The notes under the pieces are model-generated. The model did not search any database. It saw nothing but the letters and a program-made list of their open reading frames with translations, and had not been told where the DNA came from. Shown here in pieces: positions 5,585-49,362 of a DNA stretch of 64,000 bases. The position numbers and the translations under genes are program-made. Source of the stretch: Salinibacterium sp. SWN248 (GTDB lineage: Bacteria > Actinomycetota > Actinomycetes > Actinomycetales > Microbacteriaceae); assembly GCF_015864575.1 (NCBI RefSeq), contig NZ_JADYWW010000001.1:1511719-1575718 (forward strand). The letters are read 5' to 3'. Positions within the stretch are counted from its first letter, which is position 1; each line of letters opens with the position of its first letter.

Positions 5585-5664
5585 TAGTCTGAAAATGTGT
5601 TGTTCGGTCTGCTCCTCCTTAGCTGCCGCGACGAGTCCTAATAGAGGCCTCCCTCGTCGCGGTG
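5585..5664 (+). promoter_or_regulatory. leuA leader: promoter -10, Leu-rich peptide and attenuator hairpin
   Basis: TAGTCT at 5585-5590 fits an actinobacterial -10. Transcription would start about 7 nt on, at the GTG of a 14-aa leader ORF (5597-5641). CCGCGACGAG (5626-5635), inside the last codons of that ORF, is perfectly complementary to CTCGTCGCGG (5653-5662), and two G-U pairs extend the stem. A ribosome paused at the Leu codons would decide whether this stem forms. No strong U-tract follows, so transcription termination versus sequestration cannot be separated. No convincing -35 was found. Confidence 0.75.
5597..5641 (+). CDS. leuA leader peptide (attenuator ORF)
   Basis: Fourteen-codon ORF reading MLFGLLLLSCRDES with four consecutive Leu codons (CTG CTC CTC CTT) plus one at position 2, located 90 bp before leuA. 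Run-of-Leu leader peptides upstream of leuA are the classical sensor of charged tRNA-Leu. The GTG start sits where the transcript is expected to begin (-10 at 5585-5590), so the peptide may be translated from a leaderless mRNA. An overlapping ATG at 5595 is in another frame without a Leu run. The Cys-Arg-Asp-Glu codons form the 5' arm of the attenuator hairpin. Confidence 0.75.
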   Translation: MLFGLLLLSCRDES

Positions 5665-5713
5665 TTTGTCATTGGCTGACCAGATCCGTAACGAGTGGCC
5701 CACAAGGCTTTGA

Positions 5714-7510
<1,797 letters not shown>

Positions 7511-35614: not shown

Positions 35615-35687
35615 TCCTCGATAGCTCAATTGGCAGAGCAACGCACTGTTAATGCGTAGGTTCTTGGTTCGAGTCCAAGTCGAGGAG
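35615..35687 (+). tRNA. tRNA-Asn (GTT)
   Basis: 73 nt, acceptor TCCTCGA/TCGAGGA with seven perfect pairs, D-arm TAGCTCAATTGGCAGAGCA, anticodon loop CTGTTAA giving GTT, T-arm TTGGTTCGAGTCCAA, discriminator G, no encoded CCA. Its 3' 34 bases plus one base recur at 49,328-49,362, so it is the attachment site of the following island. Confidence 0.97.
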
Positions 35688-35688
35688 C
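35654..35688. repeat. attL, 35-bp direct repeat within tRNA-Asn
   Basis: Starts GCGTAGGTTCTTGGTTCGAG and ends CGAGGAGC; identical to 49,328-49,362. It covers the anticodon-stem 3' strand through the T-arm and acceptor, the usual crossover region for tRNA-targeting integrases. Confidence 0.92.
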
Positions 35689-35692
35689 GGAC

Positions 35693-35727
35693 GCCCCCTG
35701 AATTCCACGGAATTCGGGGGGCTTTTT
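35693..35727 (+). terminator. Intrinsic terminator after tRNA-Asn (carried by the island)
   Basis: GCCCCCTGAATTCC (35693-35706) pairs with GGAATTCGGGGGGC (35709-35722), 14 pairs with one G-U, followed by TTTTT. It lies 5 bp past the tRNA, just inside the island, replacing the chromosomal terminator now found after attR. Confidence 0.9.
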
Positions 35728-35961
35728 GTTTTCCGATTTATTCGAGAGACGAACATTGGCCAGCAACGTGGCCAAAAACCCGTCTTTGAGCAGCGACGGC
35801 GATGGATGCTCGTATGCGACGAGCACTACTCCGTACTGGCGGGTGGGGCTGGCAGTCTCGACGAAAGCTCATGGCCAGCTCCATATCGTTACCGACGGAT
35901 CGCTTGCCATCCACGTTGTCGACGAAAAGAAGAATTGAACGACTTGGGTCGCAGAAAAACC

Positions 35962-35999
35962 AAAGGCAGGCACCCAAGAGAGTCCGGGTACTTGCCTTT
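35962..35999. terminator. Possible bidirectional terminator
   Basis: AAAGGCAGGCACCC (35962-35975) and GGGTACTTGCCTTT (35986-35999) form an imperfect 14-bp stem with A/T-rich ends. It lies in the 540-bp stretch (35,690-36,233) between the tRNA and the first island gene; no convincing gene is seen in that stretch. Confidence 0.45.
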
Positions 36000-36233
36000 A
36001 GTGCGTGTGAGATGCTGCCGCGCACAGCCCCGATAGCACCTGAAGGACGGGTGCGTCAGATGAACGCGCCCTGCAAGCTAATCCTGTCTCTCAAAGCGGC
36101 TCTGTTTTCTGCTCTGTGGCCCGTACTGGGGCACGCGCAGACCTGATGGGCGTCACTAGGCTTTTGGGCGGCCGGATACGCACAGCAACCGAGGCGTTTT
36201 CTTTTCGTCTGGCCGTTACAGACAAGGTGTGAA

Positions 36234-36761
36234 TTGACCATTCCAGATGTTCCAACAAATCCCGAAGAACCGACTGGCGAGCCTGCTGCTCCCGAGGCCC
36301 CGTCAGCGGGTGCCACCACTGAGCCTGCTGCTGAGGCGAAAGAGGTAGGGTCGTTCAAAGCTCTGATTACGCGACTTCCGTTGTGGGCTCGCATTGCAAT
36401 CCCCGCGGCCGTTGTTGTGGTGATCGCAGTGATTGTTCTGCTCGCAATTTTGGCGGCACAGCCGTCGAAGTTCACCGCCTCTCTTGACTCGTGCGGGTTG
36501 GAAAGCAATTCGGCTGCACGTATCGGCGATGCTGGCCAGAGCCTCATCCTTGACATGGAAGGCGAGGAGGACTGGGAGAAGCTCACCTACAACGAAGTCT
36601 TCTGTGTACTTGACGAACTTGAGGTGCCTGACAGCGTCACCGCTCAGATGGGTGAAACCCGTTCGCTCGATGGTCGCCAGACTGCCGAGTGGGACGACAT
36701 CAAAGCATCCTGGTCCTATCACCCCGATGACGGGTTAGACCTCATCCTTTCGTTCAACTAG
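36234..36761 (+). CDS. Island membrane-anchored hypothetical protein (RLPLWA motif)
   Basis: 175 aa. A Pro/Glu/Ala-rich N-terminal ~40 residues is followed by a juxtamembrane ITRLPLWARIAIP, one TM helix (about 52-76, AAVVVVIAVIVLLAIL), and an extracellular-type C-terminal domain with two Cys (DSCGL, EVFCVL). TTG start with AAGGTG 6 bases upstream. The RLPLWA[RK]I-x-[IV]P segment is shared with the zinc-ribbon protein at 41,066-41,941. Function unknown. Followed by a strong terminator. Confidence 0.7.
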   Translation: MTIPDVPTNPEEPTGEPAAPEAPSAGATTEPAAEAKEVGSFKALITRLPLWARIAIPAAVVVVIAVIVLLAILAAQPSKFTASLDSCGLESNSAARIGDAGQSLILDMEGEEDWEKLTYNEVFCVLDELEVPDSVTAQMGETRSLDGRQTAEWDDIKASWSYHPDDGLDLILSFN

Positions 36762-36770
36762 CTTGCATCA

Positions 36771-36823
36771 GCCATCAGGTCACAGCCGGGTTTCGACTCT
36801 GCCGCTGCGACCTGATGGCTTTT
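36771..36823 (+). terminator. Intrinsic terminator after 36,761
   Basis: GCCATCAGGTC (36771-36781) pairs perfectly with GACCTGATGGC (36809-36819), followed by TTTTC. The 27-nt interior can pair further. Confidence 0.85.
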
Positions 36824-36884
36824 CTGCACCCGGAGGTCAGGTTGCTGCGGGCCAATGTCTTCCGCGCATGGGACGATCAGGCTC

Positions 36885-37200
36885 ATGTCTGGCATCTCGA
36901 TCGGCTACGCCCGCGTTTCCACCCACGACCAAGACCTCACAGCTCAGCAGGATGGGCTCACAGCTCTTGGTGTCGCCACTGACCGCATTTATGTCGATCA
37001 CGGGCTGACGGGAACGAATCGTGACCGCCCTGGTCTGCGTGAGGCGCTGGCGGCGTGTAGGTTCGCAGCGCCCATGACCGAAGTCCTCGCTTTCCGCTTG
37101 CGGTGAAACACCTAGACCGATGGATTCGCTCATCCTTCGGCAGAAGTCTCAACTTCACTGACGCTGACAGTCTCGTTTCGATGAGATATGGTCAGCCGAA
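36885..37200 (+). pseudogene. Serine recombinase (resolvase) remnant
   Basis: ATG 36885 opens MSGISIGYARVSTHDQDLTA, the N-terminal resolvase motif with catalytic Ser, and continues ~73 residues to a stop at 37,106. The expected next block (K-L-D-R-L-x-R-S) is found in another frame from ~37,095 as VKHLDRWIRSS, then NFTDADSLVSM, and homology stops near 37,200. A frameshift plus loss of the rest of the catalytic domain and the DNA-binding region make it non-functional. Probably left from an earlier mobile element or inversion system in the island. Confidence 0.75.
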
Positions 37201-37212
37201 GAAGCGAGGTAA

Positions 37213-37923
37213 ATGGTGGACCAAACAGAAGCACTGCGTGTGGTGGGCGATGAGTACTTCGCGTCGCCTTTCAAAAAAGCTGGCTTAGACGGAAAAACTG
37301 TGCAGGCACGCCTGGTGCGCGACCCCAACAACCGGCACGACAGAAACGCTGTCGGTGTTCATGTCGGCAAGCATCAAGTCGGGTTTCTATCCTCAACCCG
37401 AGCCCAAAAAGTCGCCAAATGGATAGACGCTGCCGGGGGAGTATTCGAAACAACTTTGACGCACCGCGGTGGCGGCGCTGACGTACTCGTGCCGGCCGAA
37501 TGGGTCTACGTTCCCCGCAAAGGTCGCATCAACGTTCAGCAAACCACCAAACATCAGGAAGCGTTAGCTGAGCTGGGCGTTGGCAGCCATAAATGCAAAG
37601 TTGTCCGTAACGGCGAGCACATCCATGTCGAAGTAGGTGGTGTTCTCATTGGCAAGCTCTACCCGAACCAGCTCGACGAGGCCACGTTGCAGCGGGTCGA
37701 CCACAATCGTCAACAAGACCTTCTTGTAGCAGAATCCGACCACCGCAAAGGTCTCTACGCCACAATCATCACCCCGGCTCCTAAGGCACCTAGACCGCCT
37801 ACTCTCCACGTTCCGCTGCCAGCCACAGCACCAGCAGAGCCAGCGCCCCCGACAGCAACAGGTTCACCGGCAGCACCTGTGCTAGGAATCAAAGGCTTCA
37901 TCAAGTCTCTGTTCGGTAAGTAG
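37213..37923 (+). CDS. HIRAN domain-containing protein
   Basis: 236 aa. The N-terminal ~90 residues match the HIRAN fold: LRVVGDEYFASPFKKAGLDG, then QARLVRDPNNRHDRNAVGVH and HQVGFLSSTRAQKVA. HIRAN domains bind DNA 3' ends or ssDNA in eukaryotic HLTF and occur alone or with nucleases in bacteria. The middle (110-190) is unrecognised; the C-terminus is a Pro/Ala-rich linker ending in GIKGFIKSLFGK. ATG 37213 overlaps the recombinase remnant by none. Its last 23 bases overlap the convergent gene. Confidence 0.78.
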   Translation: MVDQTEALRVVGDEYFASPFKKAGLDGKTVQARLVRDPNNRHDRNAVGVHVGKHQVGFLSSTRAQKVAKWIDAAGGVFETTLTHRGGGADVLVPAEWVYVPRKGRINVQQTTKHQEALAELGVGSHKCKVVRNGEHIHVEVGGVLIGKLYPNQLDEATLQRVDHNRQQDLLVAESDHRKGLYATIITPAPKAPRPPTLHVPLPATAPAEPAPPTATGSPAAPVLGIKGFIKSLFGK

Positions 37924-38308
37924 CGCGACGACCTCCAGAAGCAGTCGAAGCAGTTTCTGACAGATCAGAACCGACCTGAGTGTCACGACCGATGATGCTG
38001 CCGGCCTCATACCGGGCAACAGCAATGTGCTTCGATTCGAACAGCTCCGGCACGTCTTCGACGAGCTCCACAGCGCGAGCAGCAACCGTCTGCGCAAGAT
38101 GCAACGCTGACTGCTCCACACCGGTCTCATCCGGGGCAATAAACCAGTGGGTGAGTCCCTCATCATCGCGCCGCGTCACCAGCACAGTTCCGTCTGGAGC
38201 TGACGCCGCAAAAGTTGCTGCCCGCTGATCCGTTGTTGTCGCATTCGGGTCGATCGTTCCGGTGCGGGCAAGCCGCCAAACACGAGGTGCTGCCAGTAGC
38301 TTGCTCAC
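37901..38308 (-). CDS. Hypothetical protein, possibly a truncated fragment
   Basis: 135 aa from GTG 38308 (VSKLLAAPRVWRLARTGTID), chosen because AAGG lies 9-12 bases upstream on the minus strand; the open frame runs up to 38,428. Soluble, acidic, with HWFIAPDETGVEQSALHLAQ and a low-complexity tail ending RRATYRTET. It could be the start of a longer conjugation-type protein cut off at 37,901, since the tail overlaps the HIRAN gene; no domain is recognised. Confidence 0.45.
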   Translation of the reverse strand: MSKLLAAPRVWRLARTGTIDPNATTTDQRAATFAASAPDGTVLVTRRDDEGLTHWFIAPDETGVEQSALHLAQTVAARAVELVEDVPELFESKHIAVARYEAGSIIGRDTQVGSDLSETASTASGGRRATYRTET

Positions 38309-39483
38309 AACAAAATGCCTTCCCGAAGTCCGACGAAGCACTGGTTGCGCCTCACTGCAAAGACATGCGGCGAAAGCGTCGCCGAAACTGGCAGCCGGCC
38401 CAACATTTTCGTCCCGTAAATCGCCCAAGCCGTTAGCCGCCGACGGCCGAGCCTCGCTCCGTAATCTGTGCTCCGCCCTGCGATCTAACTCCGGGCCACG
38501 TCACGTTGCGTTCTCGTACCTCACCAAGACTTCGCTTCGCTCAGTCGCCCCGGCGGCTCTCCGGTTCGCTGCGCTCACTCGTCGTGGCCCGCCTCCGGGG
38601 CTGCACTCCAGAGCTGTGCCGCCCTGGGGGCGTCCCATCTCTTCCGTGCGCTCTCTCCAAGCCCGCTGTTGGTTTCCGCATCCGCTCCAACCTCAGTGGC
38701 CTTTCCGTTCGCCGGTGGCTGGGTGTGACCTCTACGCCAAGTGACCGGTCTGGTGGCGTCACACACCAACTGTGGTGTCTCACCTGGTCTCGGGCCCCGT
38801 CACGTGTCGGTACGCATACGCTGCGTCAACGAAGCGGAACCTCGGACCTCCAACGCCACCACTGCCGAAGGCTGCCCCCGGCAGGGAAACCCCACCGAAG
38901 AACCGTCACGGATACGGACAGGAAACGGCTCGTTGCGGGAAGGAAACTTGGGGAGCCCACAGAACAGGTTGGGGCCCATGTGAAAGAACACAGACCGGTG
39001 AACCCCCAGCAGACACCACGAAGCGAAACGACCAACATGACGATGCACGGGCGAAGCCCGGCGAACGAAGAGAGCCCCCAGAGGACACCACGGGAACATC
39101 ACGGACCACGAACAGAAGCACAGGGGCGAAGCCCCGGCGAACGAAGAGAGCCACAAGCAACTCAGGCATCAGACGCACAACCTCGACATCACCGCGAACC
39201 TGAACGGTTCACGGCAACATCTCGTTGCACGCCCGCTGCCCTCGCCGAAACACTTGCGCAGCAAGAAAAGGAAACACATCGCAGCACAACGAATGGCATC
39301 ACGGAGTCACGCGAGGCGCCCCGGCGCCGAGCTCTTAACATCGTCGCCTCCAACGCACAGTCACAGATCGGCTCGGCATCGGCTACCGCCGCGAGGAATT
39401 TGCTCCGACAGTCCGCCTGCGCACAAGTAATCCATGAGGGCCGCTAGAGACAAGCGGAATTTGTCAAAGCTTCGGCACAGTCA
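38309..39483. other. ORF-poor, hairpin-rich island segment (possible replication/transfer origin)
   Basis: About 1.2 kb without a convincing gene. The 313-codon open frame at 38506-39447 and others are Arg/Pro/Ser-rich and lack ribosome sites. Many short dyads are present, including two near-identical units at 39,048-39,076 and 39,123-39,152, each starting with a GGGC-GAA-GCCC mini-hairpin. Such ORF-poor, hairpin-rich stretches are typical of plasmid or ICE origins; this is inference. Confidence 0.45.
39048..39152. repeat. Direct repeats with GGGCGAAGCCC mini-hairpins
   Basis: Two copies of a ~29-bp unit (39048-39076 and 39123-39152): GGGCGAAGCCC then GGCGAACGAAGAGAGCC. Copy two has a G-C pair more in the stem. 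The core GCGAAGC is the exceptionally stable DNA mini-hairpin known from phage and plasmid replication origins. Confidence 0.7.
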
Positions 39484-39900
39484 ATGTCGGGGGGAACGCT
39501 TACGGTCGCAGTTGAGAGGGGACTAAACCGCAGCTTCCCTACAATCCAAGTGAGGTCACCATTGGGTGAGGACGAAACTCCCGAAGACGAAAAGCTTCTT
39601 CCGGATAACTTGGACCAGGATTCAGACGGCCTAGTTGCGCTGTCCAACGGCATCTTGACGAATGTGCACAATTCCCGGCTATGCGAGGGCACGTATTGTT
39701 GGGTGCATAAGCCCTCTAGTCACCACATGGCGACGTGGCCAATCAGGTGGCGCTCCAACCGGAGTGTGGCACATCGGCTTTGCATACATGGTTTCGGGCA
39801 TCCCGATCCTGACGACGTCAACTTCAACGTGCGCGCTGGCAGGAATGTGAACGCGCACCGATGCGATGGTTGTTGCGTTGACCTTGCTCGTGTCGCCTAG
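39484..39900 (+). CDS. Conserved actinobacterial protein, Cys/His-rich, unknown function
   Basis: 138 aa. The core NSRLCEGTYCWVHKPSSHHM, then ATWPIRWRSNRSVAHRLCIH and GFGHPDPDDVNF, resembles a small family I recall from actinobacterial hypotheticals ending HGVGHPDPD. The Cys/His spacing suggests metal binding. ATG 39484. The last ~8 codons lie in a fragment that matches the neighbouring 40,105-40,833 gene, so the native C-terminus may have been changed by a rearrangement. Confidence 0.6.
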   Translation: MSGGTLTVAVERGLNRSFPTIQVRSPLGEDETPEDEKLLPDNLDQDSDGLVALSNGILTNVHNSRLCEGTYCWVHKPSSHHMATWPIRWRSNRSVAHRLCIHGFGHPDPDDVNFNVRAGRNVNAHRCDGCCVDLARVA

Positions 39901-40018
39901 CCTCGATTGCAGCTTCAAGTTGCACGCTCGTGCGCACCCGGCCTGGTCGCCGTTCCGTTGCTCATCTCTTCGATCAGGTCCTGCGGTGTAATTCCGAGAC
40001 CCGATCAGCGTTTTCGAA
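39873..40018 (-). pseudogene. Duplicated fragment of the 40,105-40,833 gene
   Basis: Roughly 146 bp closely resembling 40,330-40,475: both carry TCTCGATTGCAG-like, GTTGCACGCTC, CTCATCTC or CCATCTC, TCGAT(C/T)AGGT and AATTCCGAGACC blocks in the same order and strand. In the intact gene this codes for the NPYSGLGIPPQYLIEEMGNA region. The copy has no start or open frame. The rest of the gap to 40,104 holds nothing else visible. Confidence 0.75.
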
Positions 40019-40104
40019 ATTCCTAAGTATGCTCCGGCGTTGACCTGACCTTCTCGAACTTTCGATGGGCCTCAATCGGCCGTCCATTGCAGCGTGTGGC
40101 TTGG

Positions 40105-40833
40105 TTAGAGTTCCTCATCATCGCTTGTGGCGTTGTGCGTGTTTTCGAGTAGTGCGTGTGCTTTGGCTGACGAAATAGAAAAGGCTGCCGCAATTGCTAG
40201 AAGTGCGACGACGATTCCTCCACTAATTGCGAGACGTCGATTCAGCTCGCCCTGCGTGGATGCGACTATCGCTTCGGCAACCAACTGCAATTCGCCCGCC
40301 GACTTAGCATCCTCCACCAAACTCTGATGCGTGTCTTGACCCTGCTCGTTGTCGCGCTGTCTCGATTGCAGATTTTCCGTTGCACGCTCATGTGCACCGG
40401 CGCTTGTCGCCGTTGCGTTGCCCATCTCCTCGATTAGGTACTGCGGGGGAATTCCGAGACCAGAGTAGGGGTTTCGGGCTATCTTTCCCTGAAGCGCAAG
40501 CGCCTCCACTGCGGAGTCAAAAGCGAAAGCTGCTCTGGACTGAGCAGAACTTAGCGAGAGCAACGTCGCGGCTTCTCGGGTGATAGCTCTGTCCAGCGCG
40601 TCTTGTGCTTCAGCCGCCGCTTCGCGACTCTGATGGAGGTCGGCGAGGTCTGATTCGTGCGTCCGCTCGGTGAGAGCCGCGACTTCTTGGGCGCTATCCA
40701 AACTTCCTACTTGTTGAAAGGTCCAGACTGCGCATAGCGTCACCGCGAGGACAAGAACGATCCAAGCGACCATGGATGTGTAGCGCGCTCGACGTACGTA
40801 AGGATGACGTGGTTTCAATCGAGTAATGGTCAT
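40105..40833 (-). CDS. Hypothetical protein with two TM helices and a long helical middle
   Basis: 242 aa. TM1 at about 21-41 (MVAWIVLVLAVTLCAVWTF), TM2 at about 202-222 (ISGGIVVALLAIAAAFSIS). Between them ~155 residues of Ala/Glu/Gln-rich, probably coiled-coil sequence containing the motif NPYSGLGIPPQYLIEE; the tail is acidic. This resembles a periplasmic/extracytoplasmic sensor layout but no domain is recognised. A degenerate copy of its middle part lies just downstream. Confidence 0.65.
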   Translation of the reverse strand: MTITRLKPRHPYVRRARYTSMVAWIVLVLAVTLCAVWTFQQVGSLDSAQEVAALTERTHESDLADLHQSREAAAEAQDALDRAITREAATLLSLSSAQSRAAFAFDSAVEALALQGKIARNPYSGLGIPPQYLIEEMGNATATSAGAHERATENLQSRQRDNEQGQDTHQSLVEDAKSAGELQLVAEAIVASTQGELNRRLAISGGIVVALLAIAAAFSISSAKAHALLENTHNATSDDEEL

Positions 40834-41065
40834 CCGTTTACCCTAAGCGGGACAATGATGACGGCTGACATCGTCCGATAGATCGCCGTAATTTTGATCG
40901 AGTTCCTGTCGCTCCTGGTCGTCGCCGCGATCATTTCGATGAAGAGCCCGGCCCCAGTTTGCGGCTCATCGGAGAAGCTGTGCTTTCGCCGCTGCGGGCG
41001 TGTTCAGGCGGCGTTCCCGATATGACAAGGTGGGGCGGAACATCCATACCGCGAAGGAGCTTCGA

Positions 41066-41941
41066 GTGAGCGCAACCTGTCCTAATGGCCATCAAAGCTC
41101 CGATGGGTCTCTGTTCTGCAATGTTTGTGGTTCGTCGATCGCTGCGGCGGAAACTGAAGAGAGCTCGGACACGAAGGAACCTGCAGAGATGGGGGAGAAC
41201 TTCGGGTCGATGCTGGATAACAAGCCTATTGACCGATTAGCGAGCCCGGATGTCAAACGGTTACCGCTGTGGGCGAAAATCGTCGTCCCGGTCGGCGTTG
41301 GGGTGATTGCGCTGGGCTTCGCAGTGGGAGGGGAGCCTCTGCGGTATGACCCTTTACAGGTTGAGTACCTAGACGCGACTAGTGATTCAGTGACGCATTC
41401 AGGCGTAGCTCCCGAAATAACTAATGTGAGTCCCGAGGGGATCGCAGGGTTCGACATCGACTGGGTCTCAAATAGTGATGCACAGGGCTGGCAAATTCAA
41501 TATTCCGTCGATCACGGCGAGACGTGGATAGACGAGACTAGTGAGGGCATGATCGGAGAAGATGCCGCGCGCTATGCCGGGTCGGATATCACTTGGTACG
41601 ACCGCTCGGATCCAGGTGGAACCGAGCTGGTCATACGACTACGGATGGCCTTCGGCTCAGAAACAGTTACTCCTTGGGCGGAAGCGGGCCCCTTTCGGAC
41701 TGCGGGCTCCATTAGCCCTGCTTGTCTGGACGGTTTCCGAACCGCCATCGATGAAGCTGAAGCAGGTTCAGGTGACAGCGAGCTAAGACGAACTCTCGAT
41801 ATCTGCGAAGATCGCGACGAATGGATTCTCGCGGCGCAGATGCTGCCACGTGCGATGGGGGTGACTAGCTCGACGGCGTCGGAGGCCGCGTCGACCTTCG
41901 CAATCATCTGCGAGATCTATCCCGGTCAGGTGTGCACCTAA
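41066..41941 (+). CDS. Zinc-ribbon, single-TM protein of unknown function (RLPLWA motif)
   Basis: 291 aa. Start GTG 41066, chosen for AAGGAG at 41,054-41,059. The N-terminus is a zinc-ribbon (CPNGHQSSDGSLFCNVCG). Then come an acidic linker, a juxtamembrane KRLPLWAKIVVP and a TM helix (about 73-95). The outer domain has an immunoglobulin/fibronectin-like look (GFDIDWVSNSDAQGWQIQYS, GETWIDETSEG), and the C-terminal ~60 residues are helical with paired Cys (ACLDGF, DICEDRDEW, IICEIYPGQVC). Function unknown; a partner of the similar protein at 36,234-36,761 is possible. Confidence 0.68.
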   Translation: MSATCPNGHQSSDGSLFCNVCGSSIAAAETEESSDTKEPAEMGENFGSMLDNKPIDRLASPDVKRLPLWAKIVVPVGVGVIALGFAVGGEPLRYDPLQVEYLDATSDSVTHSGVAPEITNVSPEGIAGFDIDWVSNSDAQGWQIQYSVDHGETWIDETSEGMIGEDAARYAGSDITWYDRSDPGGTELVIRLRMAFGSETVTPWAEAGPFRTAGSISPACLDGFRTAIDEAEAGSGDSELRRTLDICEDRDEWILAAQMLPRAMGVTSSTASEAASTFAIICEIYPGQVCT

Positions 41942-42316
41942 GTCGAAGGTAAACGGCCGGTGCGTTGTAGCCGTCGAATACGTCATTTATCGCTCAGCCA
42001 GAGGACTCGACGGGTATTGCGTTGATCAGCCATTGTGAGTTCGGTCAAGCGGTCGCGAGCATTGATGCAGGTGTTCTTATTCGGTCACCGCGGCGGCATC
42101 TCTAGTTAGGCTTGTGCACGAAAGCTCGGATATCGGTGAACCGTCGAGAACGCTGCGTCAGCGTATGGAGGACGAGCGTCAGTTCCCTGCTGCCGTGTCC
42201 TTTTAGTTGTTGCCCCGCGGTGGTGTCCACCTGCGGGGGCGACGGGTACGGCTATGTACGCCCGCAGCGCGGTGTTTGTCTGACGACAATGCGGCAGCTT
42301 CCGATATGGTCAACGC
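41942..42316. other. 375-bp intergenic stretch, nothing assignable
   Basis: No gene, terminator or clear promoter was recognised here. It should contain the promoter of the DUF262/DUF1524 gene. Confidence 0.5.
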
Positions 42317-44170
42317 GTGCAAGCAAATACGTACCCGTTGAGTCAGATTCTGCTACCCGATCGCCGTTATTTGATTCCGACGTTCCAACGAGACTATGAA
42401 TGGACTCAGGAAGGTCAATGGGAACTTCTATTTGAAGACCTCGCAGCGACCGCGGATCGGCTTCTTGATGCGCGGTCTAGCGGGGAAGTTGGTCACGCAC
42501 TCCTAGCGAAAGAAGCGCTCGTCTCCCCGCACTTCCTCGGAGCGATCGTCGTCGCGCCTGTCCTTTCGGCGACGGGCGGGATCACGCTGCGGTCCGTCAT
42601 CGATGGTCAGCAGCGACTAACGACGACACAGCTGCTAATACGCGGAGTTCTCGATGTTTTGACTTCCGAGGATTCTGTGAAGCAGCACCAACTCCGAGAG
42701 ATGCTCTATAACAAGCCGTATCTCGTTGCGAAGCCCGAAGAGAAGTACAAACTTTGGCCACGACGAAACGACCGAGCAGTGTGGCCTACAGCGGTAGAGG
42801 ACGTCGTTCCAGACTACGTCTCGGAGGACCACCTTTATTTCAGCGCCCGCGCATACTTCGCGGAGAGCGCGCGTGGATATGTATCCGAGGGCGGCCAAGT
42901 GGCTTCGGAACGGATGGATGCGCTTGCAGATGCGCTCTCCACGCTGTTGAAGCTTGTCGTTATTGATCTCGAAGAGAACGATGATGCGCAAGTCATTTTC
43001 GAGGTTCTAAATGGCAGGCAATCGCCTTTGGCAGCGATCGACCTCGTGAAGAACCTTCTTTTCCTTCGAGGGGAGCTTGCCGAGGACGACGTCGAGACCC
43101 TGTACGACAAATATTGGGCGCATTTTGATGATGAATGGTGGAAAGAAGAGGTCGGCAGGGGCCACGCGGCACGAGGCCGTCGTGACGTTCTACTTTCAGT
43201 CTGGCTAACAGCCGAGACGGCTAGAGAAGCGAGTGTTGGCCACTTATATGGGGAAGCCCGTGCGTACCTAAATGACGGTCCTAGCACGGAAGAAGTTCTT
43301 AAGTCGCTGGCGGCATATTCGACCGCTTACGAAGCAATTTATTCTCATGTAGAAGTTTTAGATGACAGCCTCAAGACAGCATATGATCGGATTCGAAAAC
43401 TCGAAGTTGCGACAGCGGTTCCTCTGCTTTCGTGGCTGCGCACGCTCCCTGAAAGCTCGATGTGCAACGCAGATCACGTCCGTGCAGTGCGCGCAGTGGA
43501 ATCCTGGGCGCTTCGAAGGGCATTTCTTGGGCTTCAGACGCGAGGGTACGGAATGCACTTGGTTCGTACGCTCAGCGAGGCAAAGTCTGCTTACGACGCA
43601 GGCGGGGATATCGCAAACGCGGTGATCGTTTCTCTCCAACGCGGCGCGCTTGGCTGGCCCACGGACAGAGACGTCGCCGATGCGTTCCTCCATAATCGCT
43701 ATTACCGCGTAATTGGCCAGCCGCGGATAGCGCTGCTGTTGTCTGCGATTGATGCACACGTAAGAGCGAATGACCCCCATCAACCGGACGCCAAAATCGA
43801 CTATTCCAACCTTCAGATCGAACATGTAATGCCTCAATCTTGGGAGCAAAATTGGCCAATTACCGTGGACGGAAGAGTTGTTGAGGGAGACGAAGATGAT
43901 CCGGTTTGGCAGACGGCCAGTGACGTCCGCAGACGCGCGGTCAACCGTCTCGGAAATCTAACGCTAGTTACTGGTTCGTTTAACAGGCGACTTTCGCATG
44001 GGGCCTGGCAGTCCAAACGACCCGAGTTTTCGAGACAGAATACCCTTGTGATAAATTTCCCAATCGCCAACACGGACTCTTGGGACGAGAGCCACATTGA
44101 CCGTCGCGCCGCAGATCTTGCACGGATTGCAATCGAGATCTGGCCATCTCCCGAGGCGTTGGGATCCTAG
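42317..44170 (+). CDS. DUF262/DUF1524 protein (GmrSD-like type IV restriction family)
   Basis: 617 aa. The N-terminal DUF262 (ParB-like NTPase fold) shows YLIPTFQRDYEWTQEGQWEL and the hallmark VIDGQQRLTTTQLLI (about 96). The C-terminal DUF1524 HNH-type nuclease has NLQIEHVMPQSWEQNW (about 504) with the catalytic His, followed by VNRLGNLTLVTGSFN. All motifs look intact. Single-chain GmrSD homologues cut modified (glucosylated) phage DNA in an NTP-dependent way; that role is inferred. GTG start without a clear ribosome site. Composition is clearly AT-richer than the chromosome around it. Confidence 0.88.
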   Translation: MQANTYPLSQILLPDRRYLIPTFQRDYEWTQEGQWELLFEDLAATADRLLDARSSGEVGHALLAKEALVSPHFLGAIVVAPVLSATGGITLRSVIDGQQRLTTTQLLIRGVLDVLTSEDSVKQHQLREMLYNKPYLVAKPEEKYKLWPRRNDRAVWPTAVEDVVPDYVSEDHLYFSARAYFAESARGYVSEGGQVASERMDALADALSTLLKLVVIDLEENDDAQVIFEVLNGRQSPLAAIDLVKNLLFLRGELAEDDVETLYDKYWAHFDDEWWKEEVGRGHAARGRRDVLLSVWLTAETAREASVGHLYGEARAYLNDGPSTEEVLKSLAAYSTAYEAIYSHVEVLDDSLKTAYDRIRKLEVATAVPLLSWLRTLPESSMCNADHVRAVRAVESWALRRAFLGLQTRGYGMHLVRTLSEAKSAYDAGGDIANAVIVSLQRGALGWPTDRDVADAFLHNRYYRVIGQPRIALLLSAIDAHVRANDPHQPDAKIDYSNLQIEHVMPQSWEQNWPITVDGRVVEGDEDDPVWQTASDVRRRAVNRLGNLTLVTGSFNRRLSHGAWQSKRPEFSRQNTLVINFPIANTDSWDESHIDRRAADLARIAIEIWPSPEALGS

Positions 44171-44463
44171 CCAAAGTTCGGCCTCGTCGCGACGACAGAT
44201 GCGGGCCATGCGAAGCCTCGCTGCGCAGGGGTCAGCAATTGTTAGGTTCGCGACAACGCCCGAGGCGGCGCTACCAAGACCACTAAGTTGCGTCAGCACT
44301 AGTTTTTGGCTCAGGGACTTCGCCTCCCGGAAAAGGGGATCACACGGCCTCAAGATTTGTGGTGTCACTGGTGAGCACTAGGTTTGGGAAGCGCTAGACG
44401 TGCACGGTCAATATATTTGCTTGCCGAATCTTTGGTCCATCAATCCGGCGCGGACCCCCTGTC

Positions 44464-45390
44464 GTGAACCGGTGCGATCACTCGGCAGCGTCGCTCCTTG
44501 CTGCGACCAACAAACACTGCCCCTTTATCGGTGAATCTTGTCTAAAGACTCATCAACGATGGGACTGTCTCAGGTGTTTGCACGGTAAAGCCCATCACGA
44601 CTGGACCGGTGATCTGCGGCCCGATTCGGCTATACGCAGCCGACAACCGGATCTTAGGGGATGTTGCGGACAAGGCGTTTGGCCCCGGTAGGCGCGTAGT
44701 ACCGGGGGCGGCAGACCATTGCAGAAGCGCGCAGGACGAGCACGTCTACGATCGCCGTCTTCGGAAAGAAGTGGGGCGGAGAGCTACGTTTACCCCAAAA
44801 GAACGGACAGGTGCATATTGGGCGGATTGGGTGTTGGCTAACCTGGATGCCTCTGGGCAGTTAAAGGAATTCGTCGCCTTCGAAGTGCAGACGATCGATA
44901 CCACTGGCAGCTATCGTGATAGCCGCGATGGGCTTATAACCGATGGTCGCGAAGTAGTTCGTTCAACAGTCGGCTTGAATTTTGAAAATGTGAGCAAGAG
45001 AATCTTGCCGCAACTCATTTACAAGGGCCAGATTCTTCAACGAGAAAGTCTTTGTCGACGGGGGTTATTTTTCGTTTGTCCCATACCTGTTTACGAACGA
45101 ATCATGCGGCGACTTGGGGGGAAGAAGCCGCACTAATTCGCTATCCCCTCCAGCCTTCCTCCATCACGTTCATGGCGTACGACCACGAAGATGCGCCGTT
45201 CCGCGATGGCGAAACGGTGCCCTTGGAAATCAGAACAGATCATTCGACCACTGTTTACAAACTTCAAGAGGCATTCAAAAATGTGACCTTTCCCGATGCA
45301 GATGTATGCATAACGGCGATCTCTTCGGCGCTCGCCTCTGAGAGCTCAACCGCTCAGGCCCTTGCGGAATCTGAGGGCCAGCCTGACTGA
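44464..45390 (+). pseudogene. NotI-family restriction endonuclease, two frameshifts
   Basis: Three frames join into one NotI-like protein. Frame 1 from GTG 44464 has NKHCPFIGESCLK, half of the NotI iron finger. After a shift between 44,545 and 44,575, frame 2 gives SGVCTVKPITTGPVICGPIR, completing the finger, then ADWVLANLD and FEVQTIDTTGSYR, matching the D...ExQ nuclease core. At the G6 run 45,116-45,121 the frame returns to 1; one extra G restores it, giving EEAALIRYPLQPSSITFMAY to 45,390. N-terminal homology (RIFGPSIRRG) may start near 44,420. No methyltransferase partner is present. Either a dead gene or sequence errors. Confidence 0.78.
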
Positions 45391-45511
45391 TTTCAGTTTC
45401 GTAGAGCAGCCCAAGTCTCGTAAACGGGACTTGGTACTCGGCCGCATTGTTCTATTTGCCAGATGAAGTTCGCGGAGCGACCCGATGTGGATATCTGGAA
45501 TCGGTGCATAG

Positions 45512-47542
45512 CTAGAGGATTACGGGCCATGCTAACGCCATGATCACGTCACAGTCCTGCATGGAAGCATCTGCCTCATGATTCCATCCATTTATGCGGA
45601 AGCCCGCGGCGAGATTGGCAATTTCCTCGCCGCGCATTGATAACGTGAAAAGTTGGGCTCGTGCGGAGAGGCTGCCGGCTCCCAACCGAGCAAATTCACG
45701 GTGAAGGCGGGCAAGATCTTGCGAGGGTTGCGCACTAGGTGCTGTGAGCGCGAGTGTCTGACTGAGTGAGAGTTGCGCGATCAGTGAGGCGAGCTTCAAC
45801 CCACGAGCACTATCCTGCGCGCGGGCCGCGAAAGATATAGAGGCGTCTAGGGAGCCCCAATGCCGCTCCCGCTCCGCCTCAATCAAGAGCAAATAAACTT
45901 TCGAAATCGGCGAGTGATTGGGTATGTCTTCGCGAGCGAGTGCTATCCAATAGCTTGTTTTGAAGTTCGAGAGTCGTAAATAAGTGTTTGCCAGGCACGC
46001 TGCGGACCAAAACGATACCTGGCGATCGCCGAAGGCGCGGGCTTCCTCGTATAGCTCTCGAAGTAACACCCTAGGTGCCTTTGGCAGTTCGTTCTCAGCG
46101 GCTGCCACGGTCTCCATCCCAGAAAGATCTGCGATTTCGGCTAGACGGCGTATCGCGAATGCGCGTTGGGACAAATTCGCATACGAAGCCTGTGCAGTGG
46201 CACGTCGAGCTATACGAAGAGCTTCTGTGTAGTCGCCGAGAAGCTTCAAAGTATCGGAGTAGGCAGTGAGCGCGTCAACGAGTCCAGGAATGCCAATCCG
46301 TTGGTGAACTAGCGGATCTTCGCACGTCGCTTTGAGAGACTCGCGTGATCGATCCAAACGACCGTCGATTTGCATTTTCGCAGCGATCCGAACTCTCGCT
46401 GAGTCTCTCATCCTTGGGTGCTTCGCAAGCAGATGATCGGCTGCATTCCCTAGCAAAGGGTGACCGGCAGCGGGCAAGATTGCCGCTATCTCATTTACCG
46501 TGCGGGGCCACGCCCTAAAAGTCTGTATGTCGCGGGGCGCGGCAGCCAGAACCCGCAAGCTGGCCGAGTGATTGGCGAGTCGAGAGTGGGAGCGGGCAAG
46601 GAGCTTGCGCCGACCAATCTCGTCTTGTCCGACAAAACGGTATGACGACAGTGTTTCGATAACTACATTGTTCAGGCCGAGTTCGAAAGCTATTGCTGAT
46701 GTTGCGAGCAACCTTCGTGGTTGAGGAATTTCATCAAATCGATCCTCAGCGCGGGGGTTTGCAGGGAGAGGCGCCGGCTTTGGCTGCTTTGTGCCGTGGA
46801 ACAATGGAAGCACGTCTTGGGCTCCGCCGGAGAATATTGACATCACACCACCTAGCTGGTGTTGAAGGCGCTCCACCCTCCCGTCGACTGGGGCGCTTCC
46901 GAAGTGCATCCAGTGCAGCAACTTTGGGCTGGTTTTCATCAGAATGGGTATTACGTCGGTATCTCTGCCCGAATACCCCAGCACAAGAACATTCCTATGT
47001 TCGAGCGCGGCGACTAGAGCTAAAGAGACTTTTGGCGGGAGCCCATCCGAGTATTGGCGAACCGTCGTTACTATGGATGCTGGGTCGTCCCATCGTCCAT
47101 GAAGGTGCCAAGCTTCGCCGCCTGCAGCTTCTAAAAGAGTGTCCACATTCAGTGTGATCTGCAGCGCGTCCATTGCCGTAAGCATCTGATGGTGGACATT
47201 CCATTTCTGCGTACTCACGTCCACATATGTGCTGACCAAAATATCGCGTTCGCCAACACGGGTGTCGACTATCTCGGCCAGCGGCTCCAACCAAATTGGT
47301 GCGGGAGAGCTGTGGATAGCGGATGTTGCAGGTTCCAGAACAGCACGTTCGGCTTCGGCGAGACCACGGATGAGTCGATCCCACGTGTTACGCATCAGAT
47401 CATCTCCGGTCGGGACATTCGACGGCGCCGCCAAAGATATGCCCGCCCCGGAGATGACAATGTCATATTTCTCTACGCGAGGATGAGCCCCGTATGGCTC
47501 GTACGTACTGTCCTGCTTGTGATCAGGGATAGCCAATACCAC
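45512..47542 (-). CDS. SIR2-domain protein with long helical C-terminus (candidate defence NADase)
   Basis: 676 aa. SIR2-like residues 25-200: YDIVISGAGISLAAPS (GAGxS at 32-36), LQITLNVDTLLE (N132, D134), AWHLHG (His148) and VLVLGYSGRDTD (~186-196). The remaining ~470 residues are helical and TPR-like (ALRIARRATAQASYANLSQR, ELYEEARAFGDRQVSFWSAA). Defence sirtuins (DSR, ThsA, SIR2-HerA, SIR2-APAZ) use this fold to deplete NAD; the layout here is closest in spirit to DSR-type but shorter. GTG 47542 has AAGGTGG unusually close, so the start is uncertain. A 116-aa gene lies upstream on the same strand. Confidence 0.82.
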   Translation of the reverse strand: MVLAIPDHKQDSTYEPYGAHPRVEKYDIVISGAGISLAAPSNVPTGDDLMRNTWDRLIRGLAEAERAVLEPATSAIHSSPAPIWLEPLAEIVDTRVGERDILVSTYVDVSTQKWNVHHQMLTAMDALQITLNVDTLLEAAGGEAWHLHGRWDDPASIVTTVRQYSDGLPPKVSLALVAALEHRNVLVLGYSGRDTDVIPILMKTSPKLLHWMHFGSAPVDGRVERLQHQLGGVMSIFSGGAQDVLPLFHGTKQPKPAPLPANPRAEDRFDEIPQPRRLLATSAIAFELGLNNVVIETLSSYRFVGQDEIGRRKLLARSHSRLANHSASLRVLAAAPRDIQTFRAWPRTVNEIAAILPAAGHPLLGNAADHLLAKHPRMRDSARVRIAAKMQIDGRLDRSRESLKATCEDPLVHQRIGIPGLVDALTAYSDTLKLLGDYTEALRIARRATAQASYANLSQRAFAIRRLAEIADLSGMETVAAAENELPKAPRVLLRELYEEARAFGDRQVSFWSAACLANTYLRLSNFKTSYWIALAREDIPNHSPISKVYLLLIEAERERHWGSLDASISFAARAQDSARGLKLASLIAQLSLSQTLALTAPSAQPSQDLARLHREFARLGAGSLSARAQLFTLSMRGEEIANLAAGFRINGWNHEADASMQDCDVIMALAWPVIL

Positions 47543-47715
47543 CTTGATCAGTGTGGGGAGAATGTCCGAAATCTGTGTGCGCTGGACGCGAGAGGACTGG
47601 AGTGCCGTTCTTGCAATTTAGCGAAGCCCAAGAAGCGAAGACGAGCCTTATCAAGTGTTCTGGCCCGGTCCAGCGAGGTGGAGTGCAGCTCGTGGCCTTT
47701 CACGAAGCTCTCGAT

Positions 47716-48066
47716 TCACGCGATCGCGTCGATTATGGCGCGCGCCATTTTCTTGCTTGGGCCGAACTCTCGAAGCCCTGACATATCCTTTGCGAATCCC
47801 ATCGCGACGTTATCGGCGAAGGTGGTCGCAAGTGCAATGACCGTGACTTCTCGGTGACTGCCTTTGTCGGCCACCCTGAGATCAACGATTCCACGCCCGC
47901 CAAACAGGGCTGGCTTAGCATCTATATACACCGCAATGTCCGCGGCTTCGTCGAGCGCCGTCAATTCGATATTCTCGACAACTGGGTTTTTGAACACCGT
48001 TCGTACTATTTCTCGAATCTGCGCGACGTCCTTAGCTGTCGAATGCAAGAACGGGTACTTTTTCAA
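47716..48066 (-). CDS. Small hypothetical protein upstream of the SIR2 gene
   Basis: 116 aa, unknown family. It starts at TTG 48066, with a perfect AGGAGG 5 bases upstream, so it is very likely translated. The sequence (MKKYPFLHSTAKDVAQIREI, ALDEAADIAVYIDAKPALFG, GSHREVTVIALATTFADNVA) is soluble alpha/beta. Same strand as the SIR2 gene, 173 bp before it; no other gene lies between. It may be a sensor, inhibitor or accessory of the SIR2 protein, or unrelated. Confidence 0.65.
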   Translation of the reverse strand: MKKYPFLHSTAKDVAQIREIVRTVFKNPVVENIELTALDEAADIAVYIDAKPALFGGRGIVDLRVADKGSHREVTVIALATTFADNVAMGFAKDMSGLREFGPSKKMARAIIDAIA

Positions 48067-48706
48067 TTTTGCCTCCTAGAAAAAACAGCTCGACAGGGTT
48101 CAGTTGCGGGGTAAATTTCGATAGGCGGGCGAAGCATTGCGTGTCTACTGTCGATCGTAGCGTTTAGTCGTCGTGGACCACAGTGAGAATTTGAGGAAAT
48201 TCGCACGCGAACCTTGAATCCTTTCCTCTTCGCGAGGTTGTCCTGGTGAAGGCACGAACTAGGTGATTGCAGCCCAGCCACGTCAAGACGTGGCGAGTGA
48301 CAATGCATTTTGTGGATTGCTGCCGCAAAGCGATCGAGTCGGGTCTTTCCTCGCACGCTCGATCGGGCTCGGCATTCTCGGAACGGGGCGGTGAGCGAGT
48401 TCGCCGTTGGCTGCCGACAGCCTTGCTCGACGCCTGAAGTCCGTGCAGACCGTTTTGCCGTCTCGTATCTCTATATCGTCGCCTTCAACGGCGATCGTTG
48501 AAGCGGTAGCTGCATCGAGCCGAACGTCAAGAAGTGCTTTTCGGTGGAATCACTGAGATATTCGCCGCTGTGCGAACTCGTCGCGTGGATTTACCCGTTA
48601 TCTGTTGCCCGTGACTCGGTACCTGTTACCCCGTGGATGCGGGGGCGCAGCGTGAGTTCCGCGCTGCTACGCTCGTTGTAATTTACGGATGAAAAGGAGC
48701 CACGCG
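48067..48706. other. 640-bp divergent non-coding stretch with two perfect dyads
   Basis: No gene supported. GCCACGTC-AA-GACGTGGC (48277-48294) is a perfect hairpin with a 2-nt loop. CTTCAACG-GCGAT-CGTTGAAG (48483-48503) is a perfect 8-bp dyad. The stretch must hold the promoters for the SIR2 unit (minus) and the 48,707 gene (plus); either dyad could be an operator. Confidence 0.5.
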
Positions 48707-49153
48707 TTGGGAAACTTGGACGACTACACCGGTTTGTCGGAGATGGCTAAGGACGCAGGTGGCCCCGCTGAACTAATTGAGAAACTCACGAGGGATGGAG
48801 TCACTAAGGGATCGGTTGTAACCGCCGCTACTCTATTGGCGCTTTACGGTGCGCAAAAGGGCGCCAGTTTCTTGTTCGAGAGATACACGAGTAAGAAGGC
48901 GGAAGAATTCGCTGCGGCGGCAGCGGACGCGATCGCGAAGGCCAACGCCCGTCCCCTCTATACGGTGAACACGCCGCGAGAGATGCAGCGGGACGTCACG
49001 CTTATGACCGGAGATAAGTTTCGGGCACTCACCCGCGACGGCGATGTGATCATGCTTGAGGTCGACGGGCGCGATTACAACCCAATCTTCGTCTCCGGTG
49101 CACAGCTCCAGCAGATTTCAGATTTCAAGCTCGACGACCTCGATGACGCCTGA
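48707..49153 (+). CDS. Hypothetical protein at the island's right end
   Basis: 148 aa from TTG 48707 (GNLDDYTGLSEMAKDAGGPA), preferred because AAGGAG at about 48,693-48,698 is well placed for it; ATG 48689 is the alternative and lacks one. One weak hydrophobic helix (TAATLLALYGAQKGASFLF), an Ala-rich helix, then a beta-rich part (RDVTLMTGDKFRALTRDGDV). No known domain. A short ORF overlaps its end. Confidence 0.6.
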   Translation: MGNLDDYTGLSEMAKDAGGPAELIEKLTRDGVTKGSVVTAATLLALYGAQKGASFLFERYTSKKAEEFAAAAADAIAKANARPLYTVNTPREMQRDVTLMTGDKFRALTRDGDVIMLEVDGRDYNPIFVSGAQLQQISDFKLDDLDDA

Positions 49154-49274
49154 TCTGAATAATATTGGGAGAGCCGATGGGGTAATCAGTAAGGGAAAAG
49201 ATCTGGCCGTTAACGTGGCCAATAACCTCATGGATGGCCAGTGCGAGTACGTAGCTATGCGTGCCACAACGTAG
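49143..49274 (+). CDS. Possible 43-aa ORF at the island's right end
   Basis: ATG 49143 overlaps the end of the previous gene by 11 bases and reads MTPDLNNIGRADGVISKGKD, ending YVAMRATT. No domain, no strong ribosome site; overlap with the upstream gene is the only support. Confidence 0.25.
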   Translation: MTPDLNNIGRADGVISKGKDLAVNVANNLMDGQCEYVAMRATT

Positions 49275-49327
49275 CTTCACCCAGACATACGCAGGCGTTC
49301 AGTAGCGTTCTTAGTCCTCAATTAGAC

Positions 49328-49362
49328 GCGTAGGTTCTTGGTTCGAGTCCAAGTCGAGGAGC
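49328..49362. repeat. attR, 35-bp direct repeat of the tRNA-Asn 3' end
   Basis: Identical to 35,654-35,688. The bases before it (TTAGAC) do not rebuild a tRNA, so this is a site remnant rather than a second tRNA gene. Confidence 0.92.

Follow-up and report, generated by a model that had tools for sequence, protein, structure and literature searches.

A rare, apparently unnamed SIR2 protein, probably a DSR2-like defence protein, encoded on a tRNA-Asn mobile island of Salinibacterium

In the 64,000-nucleotide window of Salinibacterium sp. SWN248 (the whole stretch of DNA that was analysed), we found a rare gene for a SIR2 protein in which the functional unit is one gene, consisting of a SIR2_2 domain followed by a tail of ~410 residues. 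The product is apparently unnamed and probably a DSR2-like defence protein, and the gene is accessory, lying on a mobile island together with another defence gene, GmrSD. The SIR2 gene, its parts and the small ORF upstream of it are located in the window as follows.

45512..47542, minus strand: SIR2-helical-repeat gene, an intact 676-codon ORF with a GTG start, a Pfam SIR2_2 match and full-length homologues
46898..47467, minus strand: SIR2_2 domain, approximately residues 26-215, with bounds from the alignment
45515..46756, minus strand: C-terminal tail of the SIR2 protein, residues 263-676, probably a TPR-like helical solenoid
47716..48066, minus strand: 116-aa ORF with a TTG start and AGGAGG, function unassigned, no conserved partner

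A sequence-only reading of this DNA had proposed a complete SIR2 active site, and all four motifs are indeed present in the intact ORF: GAGIS at residues 32-36, TLNVD at 130-134 (with N132), HLHG at 146-149 (with H148) and GYSGRD at 189-194. Pfam detects SIR2_2 (E 1.6e-7, 32 bits vs a cut-off of 24.5) and no other family at E <= 1, NCBIfam gives no match, and PADLOC gives five weak matches that all fall inside the SIR2 part (best E 3.3e-4). With these three libraries the SIR2 protein and its long tail fit no named system, which agrees with the earlier reading. The long tail itself was correctly seen, while its length, put at ~470 residues, is nearer 410-450 residues after the SIR2 domain.

We found two full-length homologues of the SIR2 protein (P0003 and L025:6764-8914), one in Homoserinibacter sp. 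GY 40078 (G084), a member of the Microbacteriaceae like the window's genome, and one in genome G1113, so that the group has three members including that of the window. The Homoserinibacter protein is 31% identical to the window protein over 603 columns, and the G1113 protein is 26% (alignment) to 29% (tblastn) identical, with a match that spans profile positions 26-737 of 738. Because this homology is full-length, the tail and the SIR2 domain evolve as one unit. Both homologues score above the SIR2_2 gathering score of 24.5 bits (35.6 and 28.6 bits), and GAGIS, HLHG, Q163-Y164, G167-L168 and GYSGRD do not vary among the three members, nor do T130, N132 and D134 of TLNVD; N132 and H148 are also kept in a four-row alignment with two distant proteins.

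The SIR2 gene is rare. Full-length relatives are present in 1 of 148 close-relative genomes (E <= 0.001) and in 2 of 397 genomes of the family sample, which holds two further SIR2-only matches (E <= 1e-5). At E <= 1e-8 there are none in the order sample (0/395), none in the class sample (0/393, with one SIR2-only match) and none in the phylum sample (0/395, with two SIR2-only matches); the samples overlap. The genome contigs collection gave no match to the single window SIR2 sequence and, with alignment A1, one locus only, in Homoserinibacter on the same contig as the G084 gene. Plasmids gave no match to the window, G084 or G1113 SIR2 protein, and viral contigs gave none with alignments A1 and A3 and one weak SIR2-only relative with alignment A2 (L020, 22%). 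Phages, queried with the G1113 protein only, yielded one weak match at 25% coverage. This match lies at positions 5638-6231 of MT837260.1, an unannotated 7.3-kb 'Bacteriophage sp.' record (27.8%, E 1e-4).

More distant SIR2-tail relatives of 597-627 aa are found in genomes G483, G681, G878 and G1264, and this group matches the profile of the three full-length members at 99% probability across the SIR2 domain and into the beginning of the tail. Two matches were left out of it, a PDC-S25 protein in G009 and a differently built 622-codon frame in G270 (judged by eye). The G009 protein, from the same genus as the window (L003, 1006-2559), matches PDC-S25 in PADLOC at 5.4e-148 and is thereby a SIR2 candidate for defence. 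Outside the window, the window's own genome carries three more SIR2_2 matches above the cut-off (C1:165069, 2034493 and 2038598), in frames of 540, 1196 and 444 aa, two of them ~4 kb apart.

The tail is probably a TPR-like helical solenoid, as judged from a structure model and profile searches. The SIR2 protein was modelled from an alignment of two sequences; the model is poor, with a mean pLDDT of 38.0, and its SIR2 part is unfolded at ~20-35. Consecutive helices run through the tail of this low-confidence model, whose ten-residue means reach 67-84 only around residues 391-450. When we searched with this model in Foldseek, we found 781 matches at E <= 10 and none at E <= 0.001, and 33 of the best 50 of these 781 are TPR proteins, namely LGN/Pins, kinesin light chain or Rap. 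The listed matches superpose badly, with an rmsd of 12.8-26.5 and a TM-score on the query of <= 0.20; given the poor model, this comparison of folds is no more than suggestive. Pfam TPR matches are all sub-threshold (best 0.025 in the G1113 protein and 0.14 in the window protein), and the G084 protein has none even at that level; the distant protein at L031 has a TPR match at 5.2e-4. A PDB profile search returned SIR2 proteins and Hop TPR domains among weak matches, the best at E 0.034.

The SIR2 gene lies on an island that follows a tRNA-Asn gene, with these features in the window.

35615-35688: tRNA-Asn gene
35654..35688, plus strand: left 35-bp repeat, the 3' end of tRNA-Asn
36855..37106, plus strand: truncated serine resolvase, N-terminal fragment of 83 aa (Pfam Resolvase 7.5e-13, profile positions 2-60 of 145)
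37213..37923, plus strand: HIRAN-domain protein (Pfam HIRAN 1.2e-8)
42317..44170, plus strand: GmrSD restriction endonuclease (Pfam GmrSD_N 2.6e-29, GmrSD_C 3.1e-24; PADLOC Orf5 9.3e-78, mREase_IV 7.4e-66)
44609..45136, plus strand: fragment of a NotI-like type II restriction enzyme, apparently broken (PADLOC REase_II 3.7e-19, profile positions 62-228 of 301; Pfam NotI sub-threshold)
49328..49362, plus strand: right 35-bp repeat, identical to the left one and forming the right end of the island

Of 26 further genomes from the genus, nine have an empty site (G001, G005, G009, G010, G015, G017, G020, G025 and G026), meaning that the left flank, which runs to the 3' end of the tRNA, and the right flank, past the second repeat, match at adjoining positions; in G025 and G026 the right match begins five and two bases in, respectively, with a consistent offset. 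For the remaining 17 genomes, the matches either cover too little for a decision or point to other insertions. From the perfect 35-bp repeats and the adjoining flanks in these nine genomes, the island is therefore 13,674 bp long (35689-49362). Its G+C content, 0.567, is modestly below that of the window sequence on its left (0.614) and right (0.611). Among the 13 island ORFs scanned with Pfam there is no methylase and no complete integrase. The NotI-like enzyme is apparently in pieces in different frames over 44609-45390, and a 98-base direct repeat, 82% identical, occupies 39919-40016 and 40379-40476, the second copy within ORF 40105-40833. At the same site in G023 (L028), G004 (L029) and G011 (L030), gaps or repeated tRNA-Asn ends suggest other insertions; the idea that the tRNA-Asn insertions of the genus are defence islands is unsupported for G023, where the ORFs look, by eye, like secretion or pilus and regulatory genes.

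In G1113, a phage-integrase gene, two genes upstream, and a second gene precede the SIR2 gene, and beyond it come genes for a small membrane-like protein (by eye), an AAA/DUF4143-TIR protein and a helicase. The latter two proteins downstream match the PADLOC candidate-defence families PDC-S01 (8.3e-85) and PDC-S28 (3.4e-99), respectively. In G084, the only possible defence neighbours of the SIR2 gene are a PemK/MazF-type toxin and, judged by eye and without a Pfam or PADLOC family, a membrane-like protein, both on one side; the genes on its other side look metabolic, and this context speaks against the defence reading. Either GmrSD, or PDC-S01 and PDC-S28, is thus found near the SIR2 gene in two of the three loci. 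At the locus of the distant G681 protein (L011, 206-5932), NUDIX and Macro genes precede the SIR2-tail gene and a TIR plus phosphorylase-like protein is on the other strand, possibly a Thoeris-like arrangement; the TIR and Macro proteins there have no PADLOC match.

The sequence-only reading had treated the SIR2 gene and the 116-aa ORF as a pair, and the small gene is where it was placed, upstream on the same strand. It is probably a real gene: it has a perfect AGGAGG (6/6) 5 nt before its TTG start, whereas among 145 control ORFs (window ORFs of >=90 aa not picked as genes) a 6/6 site is found in none and a 5/6 site in seven, and its codon score is equalled or exceeded in 12 of 112 control ORFs. 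The SIR2 gene start has a poor Shine-Dalgarno match (2/6). If the 116-aa protein served the SIR2 protein as its sensor, activator or antitoxin, the strand, ribosome-binding site and coding-like composition would agree with it; furthermore, a pattern scan of the minus strand between the genes found no terminator-like and no sigma-70-like site, so that a shared transcript is possible. However, the 173 bases between the genes mean that they are not tightly coupled, and the small gene is missing at both full-length homologue loci (0/2 with the same pair). When we searched eight loci with the 116-aa protein by tblastn (L005 and L012, both from the G084 region, L025, L026, L010, L011, L027, and L031, which is 3.6 kb only), which take in both full-length homologues and four more distant SIR2-tail loci, we found nothing better than E 0.30. 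In 149 genomes its sole strong match is itself, and the six weak matches in the 148 others (E 0.001-0.01) all fall within longer frames, of 191-1102 codons, and are taken as chance. It has no match in plasmids, phages or PHROGs, none in PADLOC, and no significant family match in Pfam (two sub-threshold matches, best E 0.068) or NCBIfam (one, E 0.057); its structure model is poor (mean pLDDT 41.5). When island ORFs were compared with the homologue loci (n = 76, >=60 aa, E <= 1e-3), the SIR2 gene alone matched, plus an antisense shadow ORF, and no neighbour gene is common to the compared loci. We therefore gave up the two-gene system as the leading reading, both full-length homologues being without the small gene and the small protein being without a convincing relative, and consider such a system unlikely; homologues without the small gene are also what the sequence-only reading had itself named as refuting it. 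The analysis corrects a plausible yet unsupported two-gene call.

Two other explanations concern what the SIR2 protein responds to and what it is for. A Thoeris-like mode, in which a partner enzyme, for example a TIR protein, makes a nucleotide that switches SIR2 on, would fit the AAA-TIR protein two genes from the G1113 SIR2 gene on the other strand, the NUDIX, Macro and TIR genes at the G681 locus and one TIR_2 match in the window's genome, which is sub-threshold (19.8 bits vs a cut-off of 28) and ~0.44 Mb away. We regard it as very unlikely, since no TIR_2 match anywhere in that genome is above the cut-off, no SLOG or Macro part was found in the SIR2 protein, and a TIR protein is near only one of the three full-length members. 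About as improbable as the two-gene system is that the protein has no part in phage defence and is instead a SIR2-family regulator (acting by ADP-ribosyl transfer or deacylation) or an island-stabilising element. SIR2 folds have several activities, according to the available text of PMC12700824, and a PemK/MazF toxin is near the G084 copy; however, the same text places SIR2_2 in the branch of ThsA, DSR1 and DSR2, the SIR2 gene is accessory and island-borne, and two of the three loci have the defence or candidate-defence neighbours given above.

Since one gene combines DSR2-type catalytic motifs with a long tail, it is most simply read as encoding a combined sensor and NADase that acts alone, and on balance we lean towards the SIR2 gene being a self-contained phage-defence sensor-effector, a tail-gated NADase acting by abortive infection. 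The TPR fold, the NADase activity, the phage trigger and the abortive infection are inferred. According to this single-gene model, the C-terminal tail would keep the N-terminal SIR2_2 domain inactive until it meets a phage-derived trigger, probably a phage protein, upon which the tail would change shape or the protein would assemble. SIR2 would then hydrolyse NAD+ via N132 and H148, and the loss of NAD+ would halt the infected cell; the 116-aa ORF would be an unrelated or accessory neighbour. If this action is true, the SIR2 NADase defences gain a rare and compact sensor-effector, and the gating of a SIR2 domain by a helical-repeat tail can be studied in a small test protein. More speculatively, and with considerable doubt, the actinobacterial SIR2_2-plus-TPR proteins (~600-690 aa) could be an undescribed class of one-gene NADase immune receptors that have a TPR superhelix instead of the DSR-type or STAND sensor, with one branch (window, G084 and G1113) that acts alone and another (G681, G483, G878 and G1264) in which at least one member is apparently wired to Macro, NUDIX and TIR genes.

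Among known systems, SIR2-HerA would call for a HerA/DUF87 gene, and none is adjacent, all six DUF87 matches of the genome lying outside the window. The best PADLOC matches of the window protein are SIR2-pAgo-associated models, a weak likeness (3.3e-4) limited to residues 174-226, and no Argonaute or APAZ partner is found among the eight ORFs scanned around the SIR2 gene with Pfam and PADLOC. The animal SIR2_2 protein FAM118B, which forms filaments (PMC12700824, in part), is matched weakly over the SIR2 core in the PDB profile search (E 0.047); unlike the window protein, its chains of 298-371 residues leave no room for a long tail. Thoeris ThsA also has a SIR2_2-type domain, but the window protein has no SLOG (STALD) or Macro part in Pfam, matches no PADLOC ThsA model and, as described above, comes from a genome without TIR_2 above the cut-off. 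PDC-S25, a PADLOC single-gene candidate, is likewise a single SIR2_2 protein (517 aa); the window protein matches it at E 0.0058 over residues 143-203, within SIR2, as compared to 5.4e-148 for the G009 protein. Avs5 proteins, also called SIR2-STAND, pair a SIR2 effector with a repeat sensor that in some is TPR (excerpts of PMC12931631), and SIR2-STAND-repeat proteins are also described in a P4 satellite hotspot (excerpts of PMC9122126), but a STAND NTPase was not found in the window protein (Pfam, E <= 1). A literature search, with bioRxiv preprints and most subscription papers outside its scope, found no tested defence system that consists of a SIR2-TPR protein lacking STAND; the closest mention found is a figure legend of PMC12700824, where some SIR2_2 proteins in the published tree carry TPR. 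Given that mention and the established single-gene SIR2-plus-solenoid NADase DSR2, the term 'new system' in the earlier reading was too strong. That reading saw a size and layout unlike DSR1/DSR2. No Dsr PADLOC model matches the window protein at E <= 1; at 676 aa it is also shorter than DSR2 (~1,000, with 984 C-alpha atoms aligned in the available text of PMC11087589) and than the PADLOC Dsr1 models (1227-1248). The DSR systems likewise consist of one large protein that joins an N-terminal SIR2_2 domain to a C-terminal sensor, a role that is putative for the tail here, and here too a single protein stands without a partner, as judged from three full-length members only. In DSR2 the C-terminal domain is an alpha-helical solenoid (PMC11087589, in part), a phage tail-tube protein is the activator (PMC10981675 and PMC11087589, in part), and changing N133 or H171, both required for full NADase activity, costs the protein that activity (PMC10981675, in part). 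N132 and H148 of the window protein occupy the sirtuin Asn and His motifs, whose DSR2 counterparts are N133 and H171, a correspondence by motif only, drawn without alignment to DSR2.
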